Assembly (NCBI RefSeq): GCF_010587385.1
Contig: NZ_CP047475.1
Span: forward strand, 2,170,001 to 2,234,000
DNA length: 64,000 bases
Origin: Vibrio astriarenae
Lineage (GTDB): Bacteria > Pseudomonadota > Gammaproteobacteria > Enterobacterales > Vibrionaceae
Reading direction: 5' to 3'
Shown here: in pieces, positions 51,605 through 63,829 of the stretch
Layout of the letters: the number at the start of each line of letters is the position of its first letter
How positions within the stretch are numbered: position 1 is the stretch's first letter
Notes under the pieces: generated by a model
The model's database searches: none
What the model was told of the DNA's origin: nothing
Seen by the model: the letters and a program-made list of their open reading frames with translations, nothing else
Made by a program: the position numbers and the translations under genes

Positions 51605-52468
51605 CTAGCTCTGCACTGATGACAGTTCGTAGCACTCATTGATTGTTTGAATGGAGCGTTTTAGCCGACTCTCAATGTCAGCGATACTCATTAACTGCTT
51701 TTGAGATTTCAATCGCGTTCTGCCGTAAAGGTCTCGCTCCAGCATCAAAGGCTGCTCCAGACTAAAAAAAGGCATACACTTGTTCGTGAACGCATGAACA
51801 AGTAACCGACGATAGTTTCCCTGCCCATAGCCAATATCACAGCACTGCCAAACCCCTTCTTTAAGGGTAAGATCTTTTAAATGAAGATGCTCTGCAACGG
51901 ACAAACTCGCTATTGAGTGCTCCAAAACGTCTAATTCGGGGCGATGTGATAGAAAGTTACCTGGGTCAAAATTAATACCCACCACAGATGTGTCTACATC
52001 GCTAAGAAACTGAGTAAAGTCACGCGCATCATTGAGTAAATAGCTTTTTCTATCCCCCACATTTTCAATCAGTATCTTAATCCCTGACGTTCGAGCCAAC
52101 TCAAATGCTCGTCTCGCCTCACTGAAAAACTTCGACCAGCTCACCTCTCTTGGAGCATACAAAATTAGCCTAGAGCAAGACAATGCGATACACAGTTCGA
52201 CACGTCTTAACAAGAGATCGGCGCAGTTCTCGCCTGTCATCTCGCAATGAGCAGCGATTGAAGTACATTTCATGTTGTGCCAACTAAGAACTGAACGAAT
52301 CTGAATCGCATAATCTGAATTAATCATTGACTCATCTAACTCATGTATCGCACCTTGAATTAGAGCGACTTCGACATTTCTCACGCCTATCCGTGCCAAT
52401 GACTTGATTGCATCTTCAAAACTATGCCCAGCATAAGCAACTGTGCTTACTGAATAGTTTTCAAGCAT
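51605..52468 (-). CDS. Sugar (phosphate) isomerase/epimerase, TIM-barrel family, copy 1
   Basis: From ATG 52468 (GAGGAG 7 bases upstream) the 287-residue product is an AP-endonuclease-2/xylose-isomerase-type barrel. The four metal ligands of the family are visible: Glu in ILIENVGD, Asp in GINFDPGNFLSH, His in EHLHLKDLT and Glu in FFSLEQPL. Such enzymes isomerise or epimerise free sugars, sugar acids or phosphates. The start overlaps the end of the TPI-like gene by 8 bases, so it ends the leftward operon. Substrate unknown. Confidence 0.85.
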   Translation of the reverse strand: MLENYSVSTVAYAGHSFEDAIKSLARIGVRNVEVALIQGAIHELDESMINSDYAIQIRSVLSWHNMKCTSIAAHCEMTGENCADLLLRRVELCIALSCSRLILYAPREVSWSKFFSEARRAFELARTSGIKILIENVGDRKSYLLNDARDFTQFLSDVDTSVVGINFDPGNFLSHRPELDVLEHSIASLSVAEHLHLKDLTLKEGVWQCCDIGYGQGNYRRLLVHAFTNKCMPFFSLEQPLMLERDLYGRTRLKSQKQLMSIADIESRLKRSIQTINECYELSSVQS

Positions 52469-53249
52469 ACGCTTGCTCCTCAATCACTTCGCTAGCCAGT
52501 CGAATTAATCGTAAGAGCCCCTCTGGGTGCCATGCTGTTCTACCCACAAACAATCCGTCGATATTCTGCTGCCGCAGTAACATCTTAGCGTTGTGAATAT
52601 TGACACTTCCTCCATACAGCAGTGGTACCTTTTCAGCGATTGTTTTGCCATAGAGCTCAATAAGAGCAAGACGAACTGCCGATAACCCATGTTCAGCCTC
52701 TTCTGTTGTCGCAGGTAACCCCCGCTCTCCAATTGCCCAAACAGGCTCGTACGCAATGATGACTTGGCTTACCAGATCAGCTGATACTGTGTGGAGTGCT
52801 ATTTTTACTTGGCGGGATATTGATTCCGCGGTTACGCCCCAACGCTTTTCGTCTATCGTATCTCCAACGCAAATCAAAGGTTTTAGACCTTCCAATAGCG
52901 AAAGCTTAACCTTTTTATTTACCGTCGCATCCGTTTCTCCAAACCATTCTCTCCGCTCTGAATGACCAATTTCGACTAGCGTTGCTCCTATGTCTTTTGC
53001 CATTCCTACCGATATCTCTCCGGTGAAAGGACCTGCACTTTCAAAGCCCACATTTTGAACACCCGTCAAGCACCCTGTTTCGGCAAGCGATGAACCCACC
53101 TGCTTTACATACGGAAATGGCGGGACTAAAAATGTCTGTAGTTCGACGTCAACGGCCGATAAATAAGGCTTTATAAACTCACAATATCTCACCACATCAC
53201 TCTGGGTTTTATTCATTTTCCAACTAGAGCCTAGCCAAATCTTTTTCAT
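52461..53249 (-). CDS. Triosephosphate-isomerase-family protein, EryH/LerI-like
   Basis: The 262 residues have the TPI catalytic set: Lys11 in SSWKMNKT, His96 in IGHSERREWFGET, Glu168 in AYEPVWAIGE, and the LLYGGSVN phosphate loop. The normal Asn before Trp-Lys is Ser (SSWKMN instead of NWKMN). Together with the MKKIWLGS opening and LFVGRTAWHPEG end, this recalls the L-erythrulose-1-phosphate isomerases (EryH of Brucella, TpiA2). The housekeeping tpiA is not in this window. It overlaps dhaL by 4 bases (ATGA). A role as a plain second TPI for dihydroxyacetone phosphate cannot be excluded. Confidence 0.8.
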   Translation of the reverse strand: MKKIWLGSSWKMNKTQSDVVRYCEFIKPYLSAVDVELQTFLVPPFPYVKQVGSSLAETGCLTGVQNVGFESAGPFTGEISVGMAKDIGATLVEIGHSERREWFGETDATVNKKVKLSLLEGLKPLICVGDTIDEKRWGVTAESISRQVKIALHTVSADLVSQVIIAYEPVWAIGERGLPATTEEAEHGLSAVRLALIELYGKTIAEKVPLLYGGSVNIHNAKMLLRQQNIDGLFVGRTAWHPEGLLRLIRLASEVIEEQAYA

Positions 53250-53881
53250 GCTGGCTCTCCCACTAGCATCGATTCATGCATAAATTGCAAGATCAGTGAC
53301 ATAGATATGGCCCCGGGATCTGGATACCCCAGAGAACGTTCACCTAACGTTTTGGCTTTACCCGTGGTGGCAATCATTGATTTTGTCTCTTCAACCCCAT
53401 TCTTTGCCGCTTGAACAATCAGTGGCATCGATTCTACTAACGGTAAATGTGACACTTCACGTGCCATTCGTGCGGCCGGAGCTAAAGCATCAATCATCGT
53501 TTTTGCACCTTCATCCGCGCCACCGCGCTTGCAAATACCTTCAAGTCCAGCAGCCAAAAATAGTGCGATCCCTGAGGTAGTGAGTTCTGACTTTCCAGCT
53601 ACTGCTTTTCCACCCGCTCTAAACAGGGTGCCAAAGATCGCTCCTGAAGCCCCTCCCATCGTAGTTAAAAGTTTGGTGCCAACTTTGGTAAATACTTCGC
53701 CGACATTGCTGGCTTCAAAATCGAGTTCAATCATGTCATAGACATTTTGAAAACCGCGTTCGATACCAAGACCGTGGTCACCATCGCCAATGGCCTGATC
53801 CATTCGAGTTAGTAACGGTTCACTCTTTACCATATTCAATGACATATACTTGAGCATCTGTTTAGTTTCATTTTGATTCAT
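53246..53881 (-). CDS. Dihydroxyacetone kinase-type subunit L
   Basis: A 212-residue all-helical nucleotide-binding subunit. The Mg-ADP motif IGDGDHGLGIERGF near residue 28, GGASGAIFGTLFRAGGKA, GADEGAKTMIDALAPA, and the closing GYPDPGAISMSLIL are family marks. Together with the DhaK neighbour it phosphorylates a short ketose, either dihydroxyacetone or a tetrulose. No PTS-type DhaM is in the locus, so the phosphate donor (ATP or PTS) is open. ATG 53881 has GAGG 8 bases upstream and lies 2 bases after dhaK. Confidence 0.88.
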   Translation of the reverse strand: MNQNETKQMLKYMSLNMVKSEPLLTRMDQAIGDGDHGLGIERGFQNVYDMIELDFEASNVGEVFTKVGTKLLTTMGGASGAIFGTLFRAGGKAVAGKSELTTSGIALFLAAGLEGICKRGGADEGAKTMIDALAPAARMAREVSHLPLVESMPLIVQAAKNGVEETKSMIATTGKAKTLGERSLGYPDPGAISMSLILQFMHESMLVGEPA

Positions 53882-53883
53882 GG

Positions 53884-54885
53884 TTATTTCCTCAACGCGA
53901 ACGATTGACAAGGGGCTTGATAGAGTGACTTCAGTTGATCATCGAGTTTAAGAAGTGAGATAGACCAACCCGACATTTCCAGCGACGTGCAATATCCACC
54001 AATCAGGTTATCAACCACGGTCACCCTTTTTTCATTTAGGAATCGATGAACAGTTCGGTTGGCGATAAGCAGTTCCATTTGAGTCGAAGCTCCAAGGTTA
54101 TTGACTAACACAGCGACCTCATCACCTGCTTGAAGGCCAGCCTCATGCTCAAGTTTGGACATCACGTCCAATACCACATCATCTGCGCTAGAGAGCGGCG
54201 ATTTACCCACTCCCGGCTCACCATGCAGGCCCATTCCAACCTCAATCTCATCGTCGGCGATCTGGAAATTAAACTCGTCATTCCTTGGAATCGCACATGG
54301 ACCGAGAGCAACACCAATAGAGCTGGTTCGTTTTAGTGCATACTCGGCAGCAGCAACGACTTGTTCAAAACTGTCTCCTCGTGCCGCTGCGGCACCGGCT
54401 ATTTTGAGAACAAATAACGCCCCGGCTATGCCTCGACGCTCCTTTTGGTTGTCCATTGGTGCTGAAATAACGTCATCATTGACCCTGACTGTATGAGTTC
54501 TAACACCCTCGTCTTCCAACAGTTCAGCAGCTATATCGAAGTTCATGTTGTCACCGGCATAGTTGCCGTAAATAAACACCACACCATTTTCGGCATTGAG
54601 CGCCATAGCGGTTTCGAAAATGGCATCAGGTGTCGGTGCCGCAAATACATCACCAATGGCAACCGCATCCGCTAGACCCTCACCAACATAGCCACCATAC
54701 ATAGGCTCGTGACCAGCACCGCCTCCTGTAAACACGGCAACCTTGCCATTGAGTGGTGCCTTACGGATTGCGCAGGTAAACTGTGAGATAGGCTCCAGGT
54801 CAATTTGCATCGCCGCCACAAAGCCTTCGAATTGCTCACGCGCAACAACGTTTTTGTCGTTAATCAATTTCTTTGGTTTTCTCAT
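53884..54885 (-). CDS. Dihydroxyacetone kinase-type subunit K
   Basis: From ATG 54885 (AAGGAG 6 bases upstream) the product has 333 residues. DhaK features are the substrate-binding loop FTGGGAGHEPMYGGYVGEG, YGNYAGDNMNFDIA, and the His that forms a hemiaminal with the ketose substrate in MGLHGEPGVGKSP. It keeps the full active site, so it is expected to be functional. Erythrulose kinases of tetritol pathways (LerK, DerK) belong to the same family. It lies between the RpiB-type gene and dhaL. Confidence 0.88.
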   Translation of the reverse strand: MRKPKKLINDKNVVAREQFEGFVAAMQIDLEPISQFTCAIRKAPLNGKVAVFTGGGAGHEPMYGGYVGEGLADAVAIGDVFAAPTPDAIFETAMALNAENGVVFIYGNYAGDNMNFDIAAELLEDEGVRTHTVRVNDDVISAPMDNQKERRGIAGALFVLKIAGAAAARGDSFEQVVAAAEYALKRTSSIGVALGPCAIPRNDEFNFQIADDEIEVGMGLHGEPGVGKSPLSSADDVVLDVMSKLEHEAGLQAGDEVAVLVNNLGASTQMELLIANRTVHRFLNEKRVTVVDNLIGGYCTSLEMSGWSISLLKLDDQLKSLYQAPCQSFALRK

Positions 54886-54902
54886 CGCACTCTCCTTCGT
54901 CA

Positions 54903-55358
54903 CTAGTCCGCGTGAATTTCTGCTTCGATTTCGCAGATTCTTTGCACTTTGGGCTTGGAGGATTCATCAATTTCTTCAGCATTTAGCCATGCCTCCAAGA
55001 TGGTTTTAGCAAGCTCGACGCCAATCACTCGCTCCCCCATCGTGATGATCTGCGCACCGTTACTCTTTCTTGCTCTCACTGCAGAAAAAACGTCATGACA
55101 TAATGCAGCACGTATACCCGGCACCTTGTTAGCGACAATAGACACACCGATACCGGTACCACAAACAATAATTCCGCGCTCATGAGTATTATCGGCCACT
55201 TTTTTAGCGACACGTTCAGCGATATCTGCGTATAAGTTAGACACACCTCTTGGAGCCTCACTATAATCGATGTATTTATAACCTAACTTATCTAAATGAT
55301 TACAAAGCTCATATTTTAAATTCACTGCCGCGTCATCGCAGCCAATTGCAATACTCAT
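54903..55358 (-). CDS. RpiB/LacA-family sugar-phosphate isomerase, EryI-like
   Basis: From ATG 55358 the 151-residue product has the RpiB fold with the general base Cys66 in IVCGTGIGVSIVANK. Compared from memory with E. coli RpiB, the ring-opening His99 is Ser (RARKSNGAQIITMG). The first His10 is Asp (GCDDAAV), and the phosphate-binding Arg133 and Arg137 are Ser and Lys. The block HDVFSAVRARKSNGAQIITM resembles EryI, the D-erythrulose-4-phosphate/D-erythrose-4-phosphate isomerase. A four-carbon sugar phosphate cannot close a furanose ring, so loss of the ring-opening His is logical. It is first in the leftward operon. Confidence 0.82.
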   Translation of the reverse strand: MSIAIGCDDAAVNLKYELCNHLDKLGYKYIDYSEAPRGVSNLYADIAERVAKKVADNTHERGIIVCGTGIGVSIVANKVPGIRAALCHDVFSAVRARKSNGAQIITMGERVIGVELAKTILEAWLNAEEIDESSKPKVQRICEIEAEIHAD

Positions 55359-55370
55359 ATAACCCCCCAA

Positions 55371-55754
55371 TTAATAAAGTGGATTGAACAACACTCATTA
55401 TTAAAGTACTTCATTTTTCACAAGCCATATTTGAATTGAGTCACAAAGAATTTATTAATTTATTTCTTATTAATTCTGTAAATTAACCATTAAATAAAAT
55501 TCTTTTATATTTTCTTTCTGTAAGTTTGCGTATTTGCAAAATAAATTATTTCACCAACCTAGTGTTTTAATATTCTTTTTTTGTACATTAATTCACTAGC
55601 AAAATATGTTAATTTTTATTAATTACCGTGACTCAGGTCGCGTTTGAAGTGCACTGTATATTTTATACTCAGTAGCAATTAACGGATGTTTTAATAAATT
55701 TTTTATTGAATGCGGTAGTAAATTAATTGATTTGGCTCAAACCTTGGTTTTTGA
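55371..55754. promoter_or_regulatory. AT-rich divergent regulatory region of the catabolic locus
   Basis: No gene is seen between the leftward operon and the GntR-type regulator. The word TTATTAATT appears three times (about 55451, 55467 and 55616), and TTGTACA at about 55580 is a short palindrome-like element. Any of these may be operators for the GntR protein. The stretch is notably richer in A and T than its flanks. Confidence 0.45.
55430..55445 (-). promoter_or_regulatory. CRP-like site upstream of the rpiB-dhaKL operon
   Basis: TTTGA-ATTGAG-TCACA matches TGTGA-N6-TCACA in 9 of 10 positions. It lies 72-87 bases before the rpiB-type start, which fits cAMP-CRP activation of a sugar operon. 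Confidence 0.5.
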
Positions 55755-56429
55755 ATGGAGACAGTGGTAATCACTATGAAACTATCAGAGCAAGCTTACA
55801 ACAAGCTTAAATGTATGATTTTAGAGAACAAATTCAGAATAAATCAGCAATTACTGGTTGATGAGGCGGTCGAAATCTGTGGCTTTAGCAGAACTCCTGT
55901 GAGAGAAGCTCTGCTAAGGCTACAACAAGATGGGCTGATAAAACTCCACCCAAGGCACGGACTAAAGATATGTGCATTGTCAAGACGTGACGTAGAAGAG
56001 CTTTACGAGCTGATCGCTCATTTGGAAGTGATGGCACTCGATATTTGCATATCAAAGGGGCTAACCGAAGAGCAATTGAATATACTTCGTAACTACACAG
56101 CCCAAATGGAACAAGCACTTGATGATAACGACATTCAAAAATGGGCGATACATGACTTTGCGTTTCATGACCAGATTTTTCAATATACTGAAAACTCTCG
56201 ACTTATAGAAACTGCCAGGAAATATAACGAACAAAATAAGCGCTGCAAAGATATTGTCATTAAACTTAGGCCCTTACCTTGGGATTCGATTATCGAACAT
56301 AACAAATTAATTGACACTCTACAGTCTGGCAATATTGACGAAGCGAGAGAAATGCATTTAACACACTGGGATCAGGTATCTAAGCAATTTATTGAATTCT
56401 TAGAAAATTACCACTTCTTAGATAAGTAG
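55755..56429 (+). CDS. GntR-family (FadR/FCD) transcriptional regulator
   Basis: A 224-residue regulator with a winged helix at the N-terminus (AYNKLKCMILENKFRINQQL, then CGFSRTPVREALLRLQQDGLIKLHPRHG). An all-helical FCD domain follows, with the metal-site style DFAFHDQIF and the later HNKLIDTL and HLTHWDQV. FCD regulators bind sugar acids or other small carboxylates and are usually repressors. The start is ATG 55755, or ATG 55776 seven codons later. It heads the rightward operon and divides the two catabolic units, so it is their natural controller. Confidence 0.9.
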   Translation: METVVITMKLSEQAYNKLKCMILENKFRINQQLLVDEAVEICGFSRTPVREALLRLQQDGLIKLHPRHGLKICALSRRDVEELYELIAHLEVMALDICISKGLTEEQLNILRNYTAQMEQALDDNDIQKWAIHDFAFHDQIFQYTENSRLIETARKYNEQNKRCKDIVIKLRPLPWDSIIEHNKLIDTLQSGNIDEAREMHLTHWDQVSKQFIEFLENYHFLDK

Positions 56430-56483
56430 CATAAAACCAAATAACTAACCTTTGAATTATATCCTATTTAAGGAGGGGCACTT

Positions 56484-57308
56484 ATGTCCAAAATAAGTGT
56501 AGACGAGCTATACAAAATAGCGAATGACGTCAGGATTGATATTCTCGATATGGTTTATCAAGCCCAATCTGGTCACATTGGTGGTTCGTTCTCGGCTGCT
56601 GAAATTGTCACGACGCTCTATTTTTCTGAAATGAACAATCTCGACCCCACTAATCCAAAGCAGAGCAATCGCGACCGTTTCGTTCTCTCCAAAGGTCACG
56701 CATGTCCAGTGTGGTATGCCTGCCTGTCGCGTCTTGGCTATTTCAATAAGTCACACCTTCAGACACTAAGGCAGATTAATAGCATTTTGCAGGGACACCC
56801 TGACATGAAGAGCACTCCAGGGATCGACATTACCACAGGTTCACTAGGCCACGGCTGTGCCGCCGCTACCGGTATGGCATTGGAAGGCCAACTTGCAAAA
56901 GACGGGCGCCGTGTTTACTCCCTTCTCGGTGATGGTGAGTTAAATGAGGGGGTCGTTTGGGAAACCGCGATGGCAGCAGCTAAGTACAAGCTCGACAATC
57001 TGGTTTTCTTTGTCGACAAAAACAATCTACAGATGGATGGCACTAGCGACCAAATCATGCCGCTTCTCAGCATTGAGGATAAGTTTGCTTCTTTTGGATG
57101 GAATGTGATGACGATCGACGGTCACAGCATCGAACAGATTTTGAGTGCGCTTAATGAAGCGCGCGAATATAAAGGCAAACCTACCTGTATCGTCGCCAAC
57201 ACCGTCAAGGGTAAAGGCGTTAACTTCATGGAAGACGTTCGCAATTGGCACGGTAAAGCGCCAAGCGATGACGAGTTCCGAGCTGCTCGAGCTGAGTTGA
57301 TCGCTTAA
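56484..57308 (+). CDS. Transketolase N-terminal subunit
   Basis: The 274 residues are the thiamine-diphosphate (Pyr-phosphate) half of transketolase: GHIGGSFSAAEIVTTLYF, SKGHACPVWYACL, GHPDMKSTPGIDITTGSLGHG, and the ThDP motif LLGDGELNEGVVWETAMAAA...DKNN. Split transketolases occur as pairs with dedicated roles, for example apulose-4-phosphate transketolase (AptA/AptB) and sulfofructose transketolase (SqwG/SqwH). A consensus ribosome site AAGGAGG stands 9 bases before ATG. The partner follows 20 bases on. Confidence 0.93.
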   Translation: MSKISVDELYKIANDVRIDILDMVYQAQSGHIGGSFSAAEIVTTLYFSEMNNLDPTNPKQSNRDRFVLSKGHACPVWYACLSRLGYFNKSHLQTLRQINSILQGHPDMKSTPGIDITTGSLGHGCAAATGMALEGQLAKDGRRVYSLLGDGELNEGVVWETAMAAAKYKLDNLVFFVDKNNLQMDGTSDQIMPLLSIEDKFASFGWNVMTIDGHSIEQILSALNEAREYKGKPTCIVANTVKGKGVNFMEDVRNWHGKAPSDDEFRAARAELIA

Positions 57309-57327
57309 TTTAAGGAAAGGTATTCAC

Positions 57328-58293
57328 ATGCTTACAGTCACTAAATCCAATACACCGACACGTCTTGCCTTCGCCGAGCGAATGGTTGAGTACGGCGAAC
57401 TAAACACTGATTTTGCGGTCTTTGAAGCTGACATTGGTTATTCCACCAACTCTTATCTCTTCAACAACAAATACCCTGACCGCTATTTTCAAATGGGCAT
57501 CGCCGAGTTTGGCATGATGGCTTCAGCGTCAGGTATGGCAGCAAATGGTCGACCTGTTGTAGTAGCAGGTTACGGCGTGTTCCTGACTATGCGAGCACTA
57601 GAGAGCGTACGAAGCTTCATTTGCTATCCGAACCTCAACGTTAAATTAATGTCATCTCACGGCGGCACAACAGCCGCTATTGATGGTGTCACGCACCAAG
57701 CCTCTGAAGATATGGCGTTAATGTCAACGCTACCGAATATGCATGTTTTTGCCCCATGTGATAGTGCGTCTAGCCGAGCCCTGTTCGATGTCACTATGGA
57801 AACGCAAGGCCCAGTATACTGCCGCCTAATGCGCGATGCCTACTATGAGCTCTACGATGAAACCGCAGAGTTTAAGTGTGGCGGCAGCAATACCTTATCG
57901 AAAGGGGCTGATATCACCCTTATTTCCTATGGTGACATCCTATTCCAAGCGCTTGACGCGGCCAACGAACTCAAAGCGGCTGGAATCAACGTAGAGCTTA
58001 TCGATGCCTACAGTGTCAAGCCATTGGACTGGAAAACCATCAGTGCTTCTATCAAAAAAACAGGTCGCGTCATTGTCGCTGAGGGTCATCAAAAACGTAA
58101 CGGTATGGCTTATGACATCGCTACTCGGATGGCAAAAGAGCAGATTCACGCACAGTTCGATCACCTAGGGCTAGACGACACCTTCGCTGAATCCGGAGCA
58201 TATCCACTGCTTCTAGACAAGTATGGGTTGTCTTCCAAACACATCATCGACTGCGCCAGTGCCATGTTGGTGTTGGCCGAACCTACCGTTTAG
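57328..58293 (+). CDS. Transketolase C-terminal subunit
   Basis: The pyrimidine-binding and C-terminal half: FAVFEADIGYSTNSYLF, MGIAEFGMMASASGMAANGRPVV with the catalytic Glu, and DGVTHQASEDMALMSTLPNMHVFAPCD. The C-terminal domain has IDAYSVKPLDWKTI. The 321-residue length is typical for a split pair. With the neighbouring subunit it would form a full enzyme that transfers two-carbon units between a ketose (or hydroxypyruvate) and an aldose. Substrate residues are not predictable by eye. Confidence 0.92.
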   Translation: MLTVTKSNTPTRLAFAERMVEYGELNTDFAVFEADIGYSTNSYLFNNKYPDRYFQMGIAEFGMMASASGMAANGRPVVVAGYGVFLTMRALESVRSFICYPNLNVKLMSSHGGTTAAIDGVTHQASEDMALMSTLPNMHVFAPCDSASSRALFDVTMETQGPVYCRLMRDAYYELYDETAEFKCGGSNTLSKGADITLISYGDILFQALDAANELKAAGINVELIDAYSVKPLDWKTISASIKKTGRVIVAEGHQKRNGMAYDIATRMAKEQIHAQFDHLGLDDTFAESGAYPLLLDKYGLSSKHIIDCASAMLVLAEPTV

Positions 58294-58326
58294 CAATGAA
58301 ATTTAGGCAAGTGCCTAAGGAGATTT

Positions 58327-59295
58327 ATGTTTAAGCACGCTGTAATTACCCCGTTTTTAGGCCAGCAAAGGGATCGTTTCTCTGAATATAACGAACCCAA
58401 AACGCTGGAACAGAAACTACAAACACTTCGTACTATCGACGGTATGACGGGGGCCGAGTTGGTGTACCCCTACGAAGTGAACTACGACAATCTGGCCGAG
58501 CTCAAGCTGTTATTAGTCAAATATGATGTGAAAGTGGCGTGTATCAACGTCAATGTTAAGGTGGAGAAAGAATTCATTTCTGGTGGGTTGACCTCCCCAG
58601 ATAAGGCCGTACGCGAGCGAGCGGTTAGCTTTATCAAAGAGGCAAAAGACTACGCAGAAGAAGTGGGAGCAGACAAAGTTCAGTGCTGCCCTTTAAGCGA
58701 TGGCTATGAGTTTAGCTTCCAAGCAGACTATGTTGAAACATGGCAGCGTCTGTGCGAAACCTTTGGCGAAGCTGGCGACTACAAACCGCACATCCCTCTG
58801 TTCATTGAGTACAAACCCAACGAAGTACGTGGGCGTTGTTACCTCGATAATGCCGCCAAGACCATCTGTCTAATCAAAGACATTGGCAATCCCAATATTG
58901 GCGTCACTCTAGACTACGGTCATTCGCTTTATGGAGACAACAACCCGGCCGAAGAGCTCGCCCTGCTCAATTCTCTCGATATGAAGTACTACATCCATAT
59001 CAACGATAACGACGGTAAGTGGGACTGGGATTACTTCTGTGGAAGCAGAAGCTTAATGCAATATATTGAATTTATTTACTATCTGAAGAAGTTTAACTAC
59101 CAAGGTTGGCTTACATCAGATACCTCTCCGACTCGATGGGATATTGTAAAGATGTTTGAAGCGAACATTCGAATGACTAATCGTATCTCCTCGCGCATCG
59201 ACACGATCGGTATGGAGACTTTTGGCGAAAGTTTGAGAAAGAAAGAGTACATGGATATCTGGGCCGATTTAGAGAGCTATTTCATCAAAATCTAA
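58327..59295 (+). CDS. Sugar (phosphate) isomerase/epimerase, TIM-barrel family, copy 2
   Basis: A 322-residue xylose-isomerase-type barrel. Metal ligands fit: Glu in PLFIEYKPNEVRGR, Asp in GVTLDYGHSLYG, His in YYIHINDNDGKWDWDYF, and a late carboxylate near WLTSDTSP. The sequence is unlike the copy at 51605, so it should act on a different substrate. D-apiose isomerase and related free-sugar isomerases are in this family, which fits a free-sugar entry step. It follows the transketolase genes by 33 bases with AAGGAG before ATG. Confidence 0.85.
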   Translation: MFKHAVITPFLGQQRDRFSEYNEPKTLEQKLQTLRTIDGMTGAELVYPYEVNYDNLAELKLLLVKYDVKVACINVNVKVEKEFISGGLTSPDKAVRERAVSFIKEAKDYAEEVGADKVQCCPLSDGYEFSFQADYVETWQRLCETFGEAGDYKPHIPLFIEYKPNEVRGRCYLDNAAKTICLIKDIGNPNIGVTLDYGHSLYGDNNPAEELALLNSLDMKYYIHINDNDGKWDWDYFCGSRSLMQYIEFIYYLKKFNYQGWLTSDTSPTRWDIVKMFEANIRMTNRISSRIDTIGMETFGESLRKKEYMDIWADLESYFIKI

Positions 59296-59365
59296 CCCCA
59301 GTCGAGTAACCAGCAGTAATAGTCTGGCACAAGATCAGATACTGCATTCAAACAAGGTGAAACAA

Positions 59366-60379
59366 ATGAAGATAAGAACTCTACTGACAAGTGTTTTAGC
59401 CACTGCACTTACCCTTAGTACAACAAGTGCAAGCGCCGTTGAGCATTACCCTACGCGCAACATTACTGACGTTGTTACCTGGTCTGCAGGGGGTGGTACT
59501 GACGTTATTAACCGTGTTGCAACTGCGTCGATGGCCAAGTACCTCGGAACGAATATCAATGTGATTAACAAACCTGGCGGCGTATCTGGCTCAGTCGGCT
59601 TGTTGGAAGGCTATAATTCAGCACCTGATGGCTATACCTTCGTCGGTCTATCTGAGTCGAACGTGGCGGCTGCGGTAATGGGTGGTTGGGACAATCGCAT
59701 GGACGTGTTTGACTACTTTATCGTAGCCAGCTCACCTGATGTGATATCCGTGTCTAAAAGCTCCCCATTTAATACCATCGAAGAGCTTGTTGCGCACGTT
59801 CAAGAGAACCCAGGAAAAGTGCGGGTGGGCGCAGGATCGGCTGGTTCACTTCACCATATCAACTACTTAGCGTTTGAGAAAGGCATTAATGGAGAGATGA
59901 ACTTCATCCCATTCCCAGGATCATCTCGAAGCCAAAACGCGGCCCTAAGTGGCGAAGTCGATGTGGTGATTACGTCTGTAGCCGAGCAAAACCAGTTAAT
60001 CCAATCGGGCGACTTTAAAGCACTAGCAACCCTAACTGAAAACCCATTTACCGTTGGTGATATAGAGATTCCATCTGGCTTGCAAACCTATCCAGTTCTA
60101 CAAGAATACCTACCTATCTCACAGGCCATCGGCTTCGCGATGAAGAAAGAAACGCCGGTAGAGATTAAGAAAACCGTTGCGAAGGCATTTGCAAGTGCAA
60201 TGCAAAGCGAAGAAGTACAGACCTACGCAAATGAAAACCACTATGAACTCGTGGGTGAGTTCGGCAAAAAAGCGAATGAGCGCATGGCTCGTCTGGAGTC
60301 GCTATTTAGCTGGACACTATGGGATTTAGAGGCCGCGAAGATTAGCCCAGAAACATTGGGGATTCCTAAGCCCGAGTAA
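59366..60379 (+). CDS. Tripartite tricarboxylate transporter substrate-binding protein (TctC family)
   Basis: From ATG 59366 the product has 337 residues with a signal peptide (cleavage after about residue 24, SASA). The periplasmic domain has the family opening VTWSAGGGTDVINRVAT and NKPGGVSGSVGLLEG. Then come KVRVGAGSAGSLHHINYLAFEK, PGSSRSQNAALSGEVDVVIT and ALATL. These proteins hand a carboxylate, usually a di- or tricarboxylic or sugar acid, to TctAB. AGGTG precedes the start. A GTG three codons earlier is possible. Confidence 0.9.
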   Translation: MKIRTLLTSVLATALTLSTTSASAVEHYPTRNITDVVTWSAGGGTDVINRVATASMAKYLGTNINVINKPGGVSGSVGLLEGYNSAPDGYTFVGLSESNVAAAVMGGWDNRMDVFDYFIVASSPDVISVSKSSPFNTIEELVAHVQENPGKVRVGAGSAGSLHHINYLAFEKGINGEMNFIPFPGSSRSQNAALSGEVDVVITSVAEQNQLIQSGDFKALATLTENPFTVGDIEIPSGLQTYPVLQEYLPISQAIGFAMKKETPVEIKKTVAKAFASAMQSEEVQTYANENHYELVGEFGKKANERMARLESLFSWTLWDLEAAKISPETLGIPKPE

Positions 60380-60389
60380 TGCACTCATC

Positions 60390-60414
60390 GGCCAGTCACC
60401 GAGTGTGGCTGGTC
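60390..60414 (+). terminator. Attenuator-like hairpin between tctC and tctB
   Basis: GGCCAGTCAC (60390-60399) pairs with GTGGCTGGTC (60405-60414) using two wobble pairs, followed by TGCCTTTT. Such a partial terminator after the binding-protein gene would give more binding protein than membrane subunits. Confidence 0.5.
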
Positions 60415-60454
60415 TGCCTTTTCTTAATTGACGATTTGCTATTTGGGGGCAAAG

Positions 60455-61306
60455 ATGTCTTCTCAAAATGAACTATCAGAACACGAAGAACAGGACAAAG
60501 AGACGTTAGAGCAACAGCAGATGCATGGATGGGACTTCGCGTTCTCACTTGTGGTTATGGTGTTTGCATTAATCGTAGTTGCCAACTCTTTAACCATGCC
60601 TTTCTCTGGTACGGTTGGCGGTGTAACGACTGAATGGTACGAATCACCTGGGCTTCTGCCTCTTTTTATTGGCTGCTCACTGTTTGCTGCTGGGCTGTCA
60701 GTATTCTTAAAAAGTAAAGCAGAGCAGGGTAAAGCGCTGCTAGCAAAACATTACAAAAACATTAACCCTACTGGTTTTCTTATCTCCGGTGGCGGCATCA
60801 TCACCTACATCTACGTGTTGATCACTTGGTATGACTTCTTCCTTGCATCGGCCGTATTTCTAATATTCTACATTGGCCTTTATTACTTAGACACGGAAAA
60901 CATCACGAAGCAACTACTGAAAATTTACTCAACGACCATTGTCATTTCGCTGATGCTGTTCGGATCGGGAGCCTCTGAATATGTTAACACGGCCTACCCA
61001 TATACAACCGATGTCGTGCTGGTTATCAGTGCGATCGTAATGTCGGGTTACCTTTTCCATGCAGCGAAGCAACAAACTGCGGATATGACGGCAAAAGTGA
61101 GGAGATTACTCATTATCAGCATCGTCTTCCCGGCTGTACTTTGCCCGATCTTCAGATACTTCTTGTTGGTGCCACTTCCTAATGAAGGCCTGATCGTTGA
61201 GCAAGTATTCAACCAAACCTATTACACCTATTTAGCACCACCGAAACAGACAGAAGCAATGCAGCTTTCAGATGAAGACATGCAAGCGCTCGAAGATGCA
61301 TTCTAA
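60455..61306 (+). CDS. Tripartite tricarboxylate transporter small membrane subunit (TctB family), extended
   Basis: From ATG 60455 (GGGGG 5 bases upstream) the product has 283 residues. TctB proteins are usually about 150-170 residues with four helices. Here a charged N-terminal stretch (SEHEEQDKETLEQQQM) precedes about seven hydrophobic segments, the last three beyond the normal end. The call rests on context between TctC and TctA and on the first four helices (ESPGLLPLFIGCSLFAAGL region). Confidence 0.75.
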   Translation: MSSQNELSEHEEQDKETLEQQQMHGWDFAFSLVVMVFALIVVANSLTMPFSGTVGGVTTEWYESPGLLPLFIGCSLFAAGLSVFLKSKAEQGKALLAKHYKNINPTGFLISGGGIITYIYVLITWYDFFLASAVFLIFYIGLYYLDTENITKQLLKIYSTTIVISLMLFGSGASEYVNTAYPYTTDVVLVISAIVMSGYLFHAAKQQTADMTAKVRRLLIISIVFPAVLCPIFRYFLLVPLPNEGLIVEQVFNQTYYTYLAPPKQTEAMQLSDEDMQALEDAF

Positions 61307-61318
61307 AAGGTGAAGAAC

Positions 61319-62848
61319 ATGGATATTCTATCTACATTCGGAAGTATGTTTTGGCATATTTTCACCTCGCCACTGCTGATCTTAATTCTCGTTGGCAGTA
61401 CATTTTTGGGGATTATTTTTGGGGCAATGCCCGGTCTAACGGCGACGTTGGGTGTGGCACTGCTTACCACACTTACCTATGGCTTGGACAACCAAACCGC
61501 GTTGCTAGCACTGCTTTCAATCTATGTCGGCGGCGTTTACGGTGGTATGTACACCTCAATCTTGCTCAATATTCCGGGCACCGCCGCTTCCGCGGCGACT
61601 GCAATGGATGGTTATCCTATGGCCCAGCAAGGACAAGCTGGGCGCGCATTTGGTTTAGCCACTACCTCGTCACTGATAGGCTCGGCCATTGGTATGGTGT
61701 TTGTCGCTCTACTGTCACCCGTTATCGCTAAGGCCGCTCTACAGTTCACCTCATACGAATACTTTTTGTTGGCGTTATTCGGTATCTTGATTTCAGGCAG
61801 TTTAACGTCACCAGAGCTGGCGATTAAAGGTTGGATCGCGGGTCTTTTCGGTATTTGGTTATCGACCATTGGCCAAGACCATATGCAGATGTACCCCCGC
61901 TTTACTATGGGTATCCACGAACTCGATAACGGTATCGATGTCGTACCTGTACTGATCGGTGCCTTTGGTATCCCGCAAATCATGTCGGTGCTAGAGTCGA
62001 AGATGAAGATGAAATCGATGAACGCCAAATCGATTGGTAAGCTGCTTCCCGACTTTAAAACCATGTTCAAAAACACACGCAATATCATCGCATCTGCGCT
62101 TACCGGTGTTGGCATAGGTGCAGTGCCCGGCATTGGTGAGGACATTGCTGCGTGGGTAGCCTATGGTATTTCCCGCAAAACCAGTAAAAAGCCGGAAACA
62201 TTTGGTAAAGGAGCGCCTGAGGGAGTCATCTCCACCTCGACGGCGAACCAAGCCTGTGTAGGCGGCGCAATGATCCCACTACTCAGTCTCGGCATCCCAG
62301 GCTCTCCACCAGCGGTAATGCTACTCGGCGCTCTTATGCTACATAACGTCGCGCCAGGCCCGATGCTTCTGAAAACCAACCCATCGTTTATTCCAGAAGT
62401 AACGGCGATTCTTTTCGCTGCAGCAATTGCGATGTGGGTATGCGGCATGATTCTGTCTAAGCAGGTCATCCATATTCTTCGTATCCCGCAAACGCTGTTT
62501 ATGCCTCTCATCGCGGTACTGTGTGTTATCGGCTCATTCGCTCTAGGGATGCGAGTCTTCAACCTTTATCTGATGGGCATTATCGGCATCATCTCCTACT
62601 TCTTTATGAAACTAAAAGTGCCTATCGCGCCACTGGTCATCGGTGTGATTCTTGGACCTATGGCAGATACCTCGCTTAGAACCGGCCTTAAAACCACCGG
62701 CGGTAGTTTGATGCCCATGATTGAGCGCCCTATTTCTCTTATTTTGGTGTGTGTGATTGTGATGATCATCTGTAGCCAAATCCCAGCGGTTAACCGTGGG
62801 ATACGAACACTATTTAGCACCGTCAAAAACCGACTTGCGACATCTTAA
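61319..62848 (+). CDS. Tripartite tricarboxylate transporter large membrane subunit (TctA family)
   Basis: From ATG 61319 the product has 509 residues and about 11-12 membrane segments. Conserved segments are GIIFGAMPGLTATLGVALL, YVGGVYGGMYTSILLNIPGTAASAAT and DGYPMAQQGQAGRAFGLAT. Further on are GAVPGIGEDIAAWVAYG, STANQACVGGAMIPLLSLGIPGSPPAVMLLGAL and GPMADTSLRTGL. This is the permease subunit, driven by an ion gradient. It ends 9 bases before the dehydrogenase gene. Confidence 0.93.
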   Translation: MDILSTFGSMFWHIFTSPLLILILVGSTFLGIIFGAMPGLTATLGVALLTTLTYGLDNQTALLALLSIYVGGVYGGMYTSILLNIPGTAASAATAMDGYPMAQQGQAGRAFGLATTSSLIGSAIGMVFVALLSPVIAKAALQFTSYEYFLLALFGILISGSLTSPELAIKGWIAGLFGIWLSTIGQDHMQMYPRFTMGIHELDNGIDVVPVLIGAFGIPQIMSVLESKMKMKSMNAKSIGKLLPDFKTMFKNTRNIIASALTGVGIGAVPGIGEDIAAWVAYGISRKTSKKPETFGKGAPEGVISTSTANQACVGGAMIPLLSLGIPGSPPAVMLLGALMLHNVAPGPMLLKTNPSFIPEVTAILFAAAIAMWVCGMILSKQVIHILRIPQTLFMPLIAVLCVIGSFALGMRVFNLYLMGIIGIISYFFMKLKVPIAPLVIGVILGPMADTSLRTGLKTTGGSLMPMIERPISLILVCVIVMIICSQIPAVNRGIRTLFSTVKNRLATS

Positions 62849-62857
62849 GGAAATTGT

Positions 62858-63829
62858 ATGAAAACCATTGTCTGCTTAGATGGCTACACACTAAACCCAG
62901 GTGATAACCCTTGGGCTCCGATTGAGGCTCTGGGTGTATTTAAAGCCTATGACCGCAGCACAGGTGGCACTGAAGAAGTCATCGAAAGAGCCAAAAACGC
63001 GAGCATTATATTGACCAACAAGACACCGATTTGTAGGCAAGTGATTGACGCGTGTCCAGAGCTTGAGTGTATTGCGGTGCTTGCCACCGGCTACAACGTT
63101 GTCGACACCGAATATGCCAAGGAGAAGGGTATCCCAGTACTGAACGTGCCCGTCTATGGCACACAAACGGTCGCTGAAATGGTGTTCGCTCATATCTTCA
63201 ACTTCGCTCGAAACGTTAGCGCGATGAGTGATGATGTGAAGCAAAATCTTGGCTGGAGTAGAAACCAAGATTGGACCTACTGGCTAACACCACAACTGGA
63301 GTTATCGGGTAAAACTCTGGGGATCGTCGGCTTTGGCAATATTGGTCAGCAAGTAGGGGCGATTGGCTCGGCTTTTGGTATGAACGTCATCGCTCATGAT
63401 GAGTTTAATCGCCAAGATCCTAGCTACCCTCATCAAAAGGTAGCGCTAGAGACGTTATTAACTCAATCTGATTTCGTGTCACTGCACTGCCCCGCCCTGC
63501 CCACCACAGAGAACATGATCAATTCAGCCACGCTACAAAAAATGAAGCAGAGTGCGTTTTTGATCAATACCTCTCGCGGGCAGCTGGTTGATGAGGAGGC
63601 GTTGGCAAAGGTGCTCAACCAGGGCGCGATTTCAGGCGCTGCGTTGGATACGTTATGGCAAGAGCCTCCGGCGAAGAACAACCCGTTGCTGACAGCAAGC
63701 AACTGTGTCATTACGCCACACATCTCATGGGCTACACTCGATGCCAGACAGCGTATCATGTCGATGGTTGCTGGTAATATCCAAAGCTACCTTGACGGTA
63801 CCCCAGTCAATGTCGTCAACCCCGCATAG
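62858..63829 (+). CDS. D-isomer-specific 2-hydroxyacid dehydrogenase (hydroxypyruvate reductase-like)
   Basis: A 323-residue NAD(P)-linked dehydrogenase. The Rossmann motif is GKTLGIVGFGNIGQQVG. The catalytic Arg lies in LINTSRGQLVDEEAL, a Glu in DTLWQEPP, and the His in VITPHISWAT. The opening VCLDGYTLNPGDNPWAPIEALG is like that of glycerate dehydrogenases (HprA), which interconvert D-glycerate and hydroxypyruvate. It is the last gene of the rightward operon, so it may feed or drain a transketolase-linked hydroxypyruvate or glycolate pool. Confidence 0.88.
   Translation: MKTIVCLDGYTLNPGDNPWAPIEALGVFKAYDRSTGGTEEVIERAKNASIILTNKTPICRQVIDACPELECIAVLATGYNVVDTEYAKEKGIPVLNVPVYGTQTVAEMVFAHIFNFARNVSAMSDDVKQNLGWSRNQDWTYWLTPQLELSGKTLGIVGFGNIGQQVGAIGSAFGMNVIAHDEFNRQDPSYPHQKVALETLLTQSDFVSLHCPALPTTENMINSATLQKMKQSAFLINTSRGQLVDEEALAKVLNQGAISGAALDTLWQEPPAKNNPLLTASNCVITPHISWATLDARQRIMSMVAGNIQSYLDGTPVNVVNPA

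Follow-up and report, generated by a model that had tools for sequence, protein, structure and literature searches.

A conserved two-way catabolic locus of Vibrio astriarenae, with exchangeable modules in relatives and a possible role in the breakdown of a branched acidic sugar

Within a 64,000-nucleotide stretch of the Vibrio astriarenae genome (contig NZ_CP047475.1, positions 2,170,001 to 2,234,000; hereafter the window), thirteen genes at positions 51605-63829 form two near-gapless operons set back to back around a GntR/FCD regulator, as seen from open reading frame positions and family profile matches. The locus is real and conserved in relatives, and it matches no described pathway in the literature searched. 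In those relatives an isomerase, here called XI2, and a transporter are kept while the downstream cleavage module is swapped. Our leading interpretation, held tentatively and with rather less than even confidence, is that the locus imports an acidic aldose through a tripartite tricarboxylate transporter (TTT) and degrades it through a beta-keto acid with a branched five-carbon skeleton, of the kind represented by 3-oxo-isoapionate. We infer the individual reactions, this intermediate and the substrate from the gene content, protein families, synteny and module swapping described below.

Proposed route and intermediate

In the route that we propose, the TTT transporter would take up the acidic aldose and XI2 would convert it, by a hydride shift like that of apiose isomerase, to HOCH2-CO-C(OH)(CH2OH)-COO-. 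In the right operon, the split transketolase would pass the HOCH2-CO unit to glyceraldehyde-3-phosphate or erythrose-4-phosphate, yielding xylulose-5-phosphate or fructose-6-phosphate plus hydroxypyruvate, which the 2-hydroxyacid dehydrogenase would reduce to glycerate. In the left operon, a TIM-barrel enzyme, here called TIMb1, would decarboxylate the same keto acid to L-erythrulose; DhaKL would phosphorylate the L-erythrulose, and a LerI-like protein of the triose-phosphate isomerase (TPI) family would, with an EryI-like protein of the RpiB family, yield D-erythrose-4-phosphate. Since erythrose-4-phosphate is itself a transketolase acceptor, the two operons would mesh. In relatives, a PanB paralogue would strip the hydroxymethyl group from the keto acid, leaving a four-carbon acid.

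The structure of the intermediate is suggested by what each module would need. If a 2-hydroxyacid dehydrogenase is to act after transketolase, the latter must release a 2-oxo acid, which would place the carboxylate on C3 of the ketose; DhaKL and the LerI-like and EryI-like proteins call for a tetrulose, so that four carbons should remain after decarboxylation; and a hydroxymethyl group is placed beside the ketone because the PanB paralogue needs one. HOCH2-CO-C(OH)(CH2OH)-COO-, which we take to be 3-oxo-isoapionate, satisfies all three modules and is therefore proposed as their common intermediate. The gene set of one relative (locus L101) fits as well, because PanB would leave a four-carbon acid for its DUF1537 kinase and PdxA. 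For the metabolism of this compound, a passage of PMC11747546 names a 3-oxoisoapionate kinase and 4-phosphate decarboxylase as well as a D-apionate oxidoisomerase.

Where transketolase is absent, the 2-hydroxyacid dehydrogenase does not stand beside XI2, which suggests that the imported acid already carries a carbonyl and is thus an aldose acid; a mutarotase gene in relatives fits such a substrate. An earlier note on this DNA had expected a short or branched-chain sugar or sugar acid to enter by the TTT transporter. The acid-type transporter favours the second of these options and the PanB/DUF1537 variants suggest a branched five-carbon acid, whereas a neutral sugar has become less likely because the transporters are mostly TTT or tripartite ATP-independent periplasmic (TRAP) systems.

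The isomerase XI2 and the modules around it

XI2 (58327-59295, plus strand; AP_endonuc_2 family) has as its best solved relative 3ktc (132 bits), which was deposited as a putative sugar isomerase. Residues E161, K163, D196, H199, D227, D233 and D265 are invariant across 20 aligned sequences, and we take them to be the metal ligands and the lysine of xylose isomerase. The AlphaFold2 (AF2) model of the protein (predicted local distance difference test score, pLDDT, 86) matches 3ktc (template modelling score, TM, 0.90), followed by xylose and L-rhamnose isomerases. By predicted fold and conserved residues, XI2 is thus a two-metal aldose-ketose isomerase, and what the earlier note had called simply a second isomerase can now be described as apiose/xylose-isomerase-like. 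It shares 26-27% identity over the alignment, and 28-32% locally, with three proteins of the 3ktc group, and it stands apart from that group in a quick tree that has long branches. Among four plasmid contexts of 3ktc relatives that we viewed, one from Streptomyces (L077) combines the isomerase with a split transketolase, an FGGY kinase and pectin enzymes. Because this is the layout of the D-apiose pathway, for which a passage of PMC13001218 names apsI, aptA and aptB, the 3ktc group is likely ApsI, the apiose isomerase. Among whole genomes XI2 is uncommon and patchily distributed: it occurs in 9 of 329 genomes of the host's family, the host itself counted, and in 7 of 395 from the phylum to which genome G002 belongs, two of these copies being distant (33-35% identity) with no modules nearby.

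Genome contigs yielded 61 XI2 loci from Gammaproteobacteria, Desulfobacterota, Spirochaetes and Alphaproteobacteria, of which 60 were used after a 25% match (L064) had been dropped. Genes were scored as nearby when they lay within 9 kb of XI2, and 33 loci whose flanks reach 4 kb or more on either side of XI2 were also considered as a subset, a contig end within 4 kb having removed the other 27 of the 60. A Photobacterium locus (L005) was scored as a transketolase locus despite holding only a remnant, and L009 because it has a single-chain transketolase, encoded on the opposite strand; loci cut by contig ends stayed in the tree labels.

The two-way gene set is not a chance arrangement, since it recurs in L004 (Vibrio sp. 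10N.286.49.B1), L006, L007 and L012, and also in L098 and L099, where TctB and TctC were recognised by eye; L100 has the identical gene set with its regulator relocated. Synteny in relatives was a check proposed in the earlier note, and in this respect its picture of a single locus holds. The set as a whole nevertheless varies: XI2 and the transporter stay in place in relatives, and what follows is exchanged. Three modules alternate: a split transketolase with a 2-hydroxyacid dehydrogenase; the TIM-barrel protein with DhaKL and RpiB (the erythrulose module); and a DUF1537 kinase with a PanB paralogue. Across the 60 loci, 22 have the transketolase only, 17 have DUF1537/PanB only and 7 have both, while 5 combine the transketolase with the erythrulose module, 4 have the erythrulose module only and 5 have none, all of these last five lying within 1.5 kb of a contig end. 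A TctA or TRAP subunit is nearby in 46 of the 60 loci and in 29 of the 33 with long flanks.

The modules keep company with particular genes. In the 33-locus subset the dehydrogenase is present in 17 of 21 transketolase loci vs 0 of 12 others (25/34 vs 1/26 among all 60), although Fisher values overstate this association because the loci are related by descent and offer two independent pairs, and we regard it as a pattern, not proof. PanB shows the reverse distribution in the subset, with 11 of 12 non-transketolase loci vs 1 of 21 transketolase loci. On the quick XI2 tree, seven label changes are required for the transketolase, five for the erythrulose module and four for PanB. Of 17 genomes that have PanB loci, 15 were used to count PanB copies (the count does not include L057 and L061), and a second PanB scores over the cut-off in 10 of these 15.

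Individual loci illustrate the exchange. One Vibrio genome (G123) has two paralogous loci with one module each and their own XI2 and TTT genes: L096 has the transketolase and, on the assumption of a circular contig, continues past the contig ends into dehydrogenase and GalM (L107); L097 has the erythrulose module, with no transketolase, dehydrogenase or GalM within 20 kb. The Photobacterium locus retains a transketolase remnant (L005:9543-9939) that covers residues 1-66 of one subunit and 235-315 of the other, with most other genes kept. TIMb1, RpiB and DhaK also adjoin XI2 in L021 and L062, and the contig of L050 ends after RpiB. In L101, PanB and XI2 occur with a threonate-kinase-like DUF1537 protein, a threonine-dehydrogenase-like enzyme and PdxA.

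L101, L102 and L103 represent a second arrangement around XI2, with a PrpR-like sigma-54 regulator, a DUF1537 kinase, a threonine-dehydrogenase-like enzyme, PanB and XI2. In L101 and L102, TctCBA and PdxA come after XI2; neither was seen in L103. The proteins were scanned on L101, and L102 and L103 were assigned by likeness, except for PanB and XI2 of L102.

The two operons and their regulator

All 13 frames have the positions and families given in the earlier note when checked against the open reading frame list and profile scans, the first start codon having been picked mechanically as the start of each gene. The claim that they form one two-way catabolic unit with an operon on either side is supported. 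Every adjacent gene pair in the left operon overlaps by 1-28 bp, and the gaps in the right operon are 3-61 bp. The left operon lies on the minus strand and runs outward from the regulator in the order RpiB-family protein, DhaK, DhaL, TPI-family protein and TIMb1. The right operon lies on the plus strand and consists of the GntR/FCD gene, two transketolase halves, XI2, TctC, TctB, TctA and the 2-hydroxyacid dehydrogenase. Beyond the dehydrogenase lies a frame on the opposite strand (L003:1970-3616), judged by eye to be phosphoglucomutase-like.

The TPI-family protein (52461-53249; TIM family) scores 205.8 bits against 11ef, a solved L-erythrulose-1-phosphate isomerase and its best solved relative, vs 174.2 bits against the best canonical TPI, and it has loop/binding-site motifs and a VGRxAW motif in common with 11ef. 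Canonical TPIs separate from it at 0.993 in a tree in which the placement of 11ef among the remainder is weak, and a canonical TpiA is encoded elsewhere in the host genome (4.8 Mb, two contigs). We propose that the protein is an L-erythrulose-1-phosphate isomerase of the LerI/EryH type. The RpiB-family protein (54903-55370; LacAB_rpiB) has Asp and Ser at the positions of the RpiB histidines; 3qd5 has the same pair and 5ifz has Ser and Ser. It matches NF051858 with 163.7 bits, under the cut-off of 240, and the general RpiB model PRK05571 over its cut-off. The protein resembles erythrulose-phosphate isomerases of the EryI type, and its proposed activity is that of a D-erythrulose-4-phosphate isomerase (EryI/DerI type). 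DhaK (53884-54903; Dak1, 359.8 bits), which is 52% identical to Pasteurella DhaK, and DhaL (53246-53911; Dak2; TIGR02365, 177.8 bits, over cut-off) are the subunits of a ketose kinase that is proposed to act on erythrulose. Because the LerI-like TPI, the EryI-like RpiB and DhaKL stand together, we read the left operon as a module for tetrulose phosphates that would end at erythrose-4-phosphate. The erythrulose-phosphate module put forward in the earlier note draws support from the nearness of the TPI-like protein to 11ef and from the missing histidines of the RpiB-like protein.

TIMb1 (51605-52483; AP_endonuc_2) is proposed to be a beta-keto-acid decarboxylase, OiaC-like by genomic context. 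In Sinorhizobium and Pasteurella its relatives are neighbours of DhaKL, and one on a Klebsiella plasmid is accompanied by TPI-like and RpiB-like proteins, Tal, Tkt and a 2-hydroxyacid dehydrogenase. TIMb1 is 28% identical to the rhizobial TIM protein beside DhaKL, a putative OiaC (3-oxo-isoapionate decarboxylase); in a protein search with the Sinorhizobium sequence, the names were all generic among the matches listed (120 of 498). Residues E140, D173, H199 and H201 are invariant among 10 sequences, and the closest folds to the AF2 model (pLDDT 91) are sugar epimerases (TM 0.6-0.7).

Two of these contexts contain further genes. A Sinorhizobium fredii plasmid typed as conjugative (L065, L066) brings together a TRAP transporter, a threonate-dehydrogenase-like enzyme, a hydrolase, the TIMb1 relative and DhaKL. 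In Pasteurella multocida (L068), two TRAP transporters, PdxA, DhaKL, the TIMb1 relative, RpiB, a TPI-family gene, transaldolase and transketolase form a cluster with the appearance of a related pathway for a tetrulose or an acid sugar.

In the right operon, the N-terminal (thiamine) subunit of the split transketolase (56484-57308; Transketolase_N, 204.3 bits) and its C-terminal subunit (57328-58293; Transket_pyr and Transketolase_C) share 39%/31% identity with E. coli AptA/AptB vs 53%/39% with a Collinsella pair; two full-length transketolases are encoded elsewhere in the host genome. The periplasmic binding protein TctC (59357-60379; PF03401), the small membrane subunit TctB (60428-61306; PF07331) and the large membrane subunit TctA (61310-62848; PF01970, 448 bits) are all over their Pfam cut-offs and together make a full TTT transporter. 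The D-2-hydroxyacid dehydrogenase (62858-63829; 2-Hacid_dh), a proposed hydroxypyruvate reductase, matches NF005069 with 289.7 bits, under the cut-off of 448. Downstream of it, L004, L005, L006, L007, L008, L009 and L012 have a gene for a GalM-type aldose-1-epimerase, and a mutarotase gene is near XI2 in 7 of the 60 loci; the host genome has no close GalM copy, the best match being 31% identical.

Upstream of the GntR/FCD regulator gene (55755-56429; GntR and FCD), the palindrome TAATAAATTTTTTA at 55692-55705 is a candidate operator of the regulator. Its motif, TAANAAATTTNTTA, lies 53-97 bp upstream of the FCD gene and is matched exactly in 10 of 12 intergenic regions, or in 9 of 11 distinct ones given that L108 is the genome of L006 again; the motif was picked on the same regions in which it was counted (shuffle mean 0.02, largest 1). 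The motif has no match in L007 or in L100, the locus with the relocated regulator. In the 64-kb window the motif occurs once, with 0 expected.

Alternative substrates and related pathways

Several observations weigh against import of an aldose acid and its conversion to a branched keto acid. We know of no natural occurrence of the aldose acid required, apiose with one hydroxymethyl group oxidised to a carboxylate, and no carboxylated-apiose term occurs among the open-licence literature matches listed. PanB normally acts on an alpha-keto acid, and the single PanB over the cut-off in 5 of the 15 genomes may serve pantothenate synthesis. Just two phylogenetically independent pairs test the link between transketolase and dehydrogenase, and glycerate kinase is not tied to transketolase (4/34 vs 1/26, p 0.38; 5 of 60 loci overall), so that we dropped it as support for hydroxypyruvate. 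The appearance of an apiose operon is found in only one of the four contexts of 3ktc relatives. On the tetrulose side, four loci with the erythrulose module (L005, L021, L050 and L062) lack the TPI-like gene, and in L010 TIMb1 is present but neither DhaKL nor RpiB is. The TPI-family protein fits the NCBIfam model NF000722 'triose-phosphate isomerase' over its cut-off (311.7 vs 293), and 5ifz and 3qd5, with the same odd residues as the RpiB-family protein, were deposited as ribose-5-phosphate isomerases. The fold search with TIMb1, which is just 22-31% identical to relatives outside Vibrio-type loci, returns epimerases and does not separate a decarboxylase from an epimerase. Genes of the BKACE type (beta-keto-acid cleavage) and of a further TIM-barrel group (c9), for which the proposed route has no explanation, lie near XI2 in Spirochaetes (L013, L019, L022, L026, L027, L058 and L059), and L038 has a sugar ATP-binding cassette (ABC) transporter.

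The strongest rival, unlikely in our estimate, is a linear four-carbon route in which a tetruronate or tetronate is imported and XI2, or the dehydrogenase with XI2, makes 3-oxotetronate; transketolase would then release glyoxylate, TIMb1 would form dihydroxyacetone for conversion by DhaKL to dihydroxyacetone phosphate, and DUF1537 would be a 3-oxotetronate kinase. The DUF1537 proteins do match threonate and 3-oxotetronate kinase models and the dehydrogenases match glyoxylate reductase models, in every case under cut-off, and the Sinorhizobium TIMb1 cluster has an L-threonate-dehydrogenase-like gene (294 bits, cut-off 350). Such a route, however, has no need for a TPI and an RpiB of the erythrulose-phosphate type, and it leaves PanB without a beta-hydroxymethyl ketone. 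A quite unlikely variant keeps the branched intermediate and everything downstream and begins from D-apionate, which the dehydrogenase would oxidise before XI2 migrates the hydroxymethyl group, the pair replacing D-apionate oxidoisomerase. D-apionate is a known metabolite and the central intermediate is identical to that of the route from an aldose acid; the oxidoisomerase, the 3-oxoisoapionate kinase and the 4-phosphate decarboxylase are those named in the same passage of PMC11747546. Yet none of the 12 non-transketolase loci with 4-kb flanks has a member of this 2-hydroxyacid dehydrogenase family, and other dehydrogenases are rare in non-transketolase loci (a short-chain dehydrogenase/reductase in L037, the threonine-dehydrogenase-like enzyme in L101). 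XI2, moreover, retains what we take to be the xylose isomerase lysine and both metal sites.

An analogue of the sulfo-transketolase (sulfo-TK) pathway with carboxylates in place of sulfonates, in which XI2 acts on a hexuronate, transketolase frees a four-carbon aldehyde acid, RpiB isomerises it and TIMb1 and DhaKL finish, appears improbable to us. Isomerase, split transketolase and second isomerase do parallel SqvD, SqwGH and SqwI (as given in passages of PMC12890257 and PMC11659671), and relatives have a mutarotase gene, but the first cleavage would be missing in L021, L062 and L097, which have TIMb1 and RpiB with no transketolase nearby, unless a distant transketolase serves; PanB would be unexplained, and the host genome already has two UxaC genes. 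The family names of DhaKL, TPI and RpiB would also suit ordinary dihydroxyacetone or erythritol-type use by unrelated genes that happen to be gathered here, which we consider very improbable: the two-way locus is conserved across several genera, and the LerI-like TPI and acid-type transporter argue against it. Simple dihydroxyacetone use, which the earlier note had named as a possible refutation, fits poorly, given the LerI-like TPI together with the EryI-like RpiB and the separate canonical TpiA. Aceric acid, which a passage of PMC5698469 gives as 3-C-carboxy-5-deoxy-L-xylose, was rejected as a substrate; it would leave PanB and the erythrulose module without a role.

The proposed branched-acid route has elements in common with several known systems. 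The non-oxidative D-apiose pathway (ApsI, kinase, AptA/AptB; a passage of PMC13001218) likewise sets an isomerase, probably of the 3ktc group, beside a split transketolase, as in Streptomyces L077. By contrast, family scans found no FGGY kinase among the 13 genes, most XI2 loci have TTT or TRAP rather than a sugar ABC transporter, and the C-terminal half of the transketolase is closer to a generic split transketolase than to AptB (39% vs 31%). Because there is no such kinase, we do not assign the locus to the apiose pathway, and for the same reason, and in view of the acid-type transporters, D-apiose itself was rejected as a substrate. The oxidative D-apiose and D-apionate pathways, of which the decarboxylase OiaC is part, would share the proposed 3-oxo-isoapionate intermediate, the pairing of TIMb1 with DhaKL, and the DUF1537 kinase of relatives. 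They differ in that family scans of the 13 genes found no RuBisCO-like domain, and in that entry here would be by an isomerase and exit by transketolase or PanB. The one dehydrogenase that the scans show among the 13 is of the 2-hydroxyacid family. The TPI-like and RpiB-like proteins resemble those in the tetrulose-phosphate module of erythritol and threitol use (LerI/EryH, EryI/DerI, erythrulose kinase), but no polyol dehydrogenase is among the 13 genes, the kinase here is DhaKL and the module would be fed from an acid.

With the sulfo-TK pathway (SqvD, SqwGH, SqwI) the locus would share an isomerase and a split transketolase acting on a non-phosphorylated anionic ketose, although the chemistry here appears to be that of carboxylates (a decarboxylase, and an acid-sugar kinase in relatives) rather than sulfonates. 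A sulfonate substrate was rejected, neither sulfonate nor sulfoquinovose genes being named in the family matches of the 13, in which no dedicated models or reference sequences were used. The L-threonate, D-threonate and erythronate pathways (DUF1537, PdxA2) have the DUF1537 kinase and PdxA in common with XI2 loci of relatives, but both are absent from the window, and to our knowledge XI2 and PanB have no place in those pathways. The earlier note knew of no pathway with this exact set of genes, and we likewise found none described in the open-licence literature searched, including the passages of PMC13001218, PMC12890257, PMC11659671, PMC11747546, PMC12780249, PMC6302742 and PMC5698469 that it covered. 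The overall interpretation given in that note is partly supported, and the locus fits best within branched acid-sugar catabolism, as a variant.

A wider and more doubtful suggestion is that marine and anaerobic bacteria possess an undescribed branched-chain acid-sugar economy, in which one keto acid, supplied by an enzyme resembling apiose isomerase, would leave by any of three interchangeable exits. For two of these, cleavage by transketolase to give hydroxypyruvate and a PanB with a catabolic role that gives a hydroxymethyl group to tetrahydrofolate, we know of no precedent. Standard models give such proteins housekeeping names, triose-phosphate isomerase and ribose-5-phosphate isomerase B in the locus and ketopantoate hydroxymethyltransferase in relatives. 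For clusters in vibrios, Desulfobacterota and spirochaetes, the proposal sets out a pathway that can be tested, naming its enzymes and a few candidate substrates. If it is true, branched-sugar catabolism would gain two exits, one by transketolase and one coupled to folate, and the proposal would indicate an unrecognised acidic sugar, an unnamed carboxylated relative of apiose that these bacteria meet often enough for dedicated operons to be kept.

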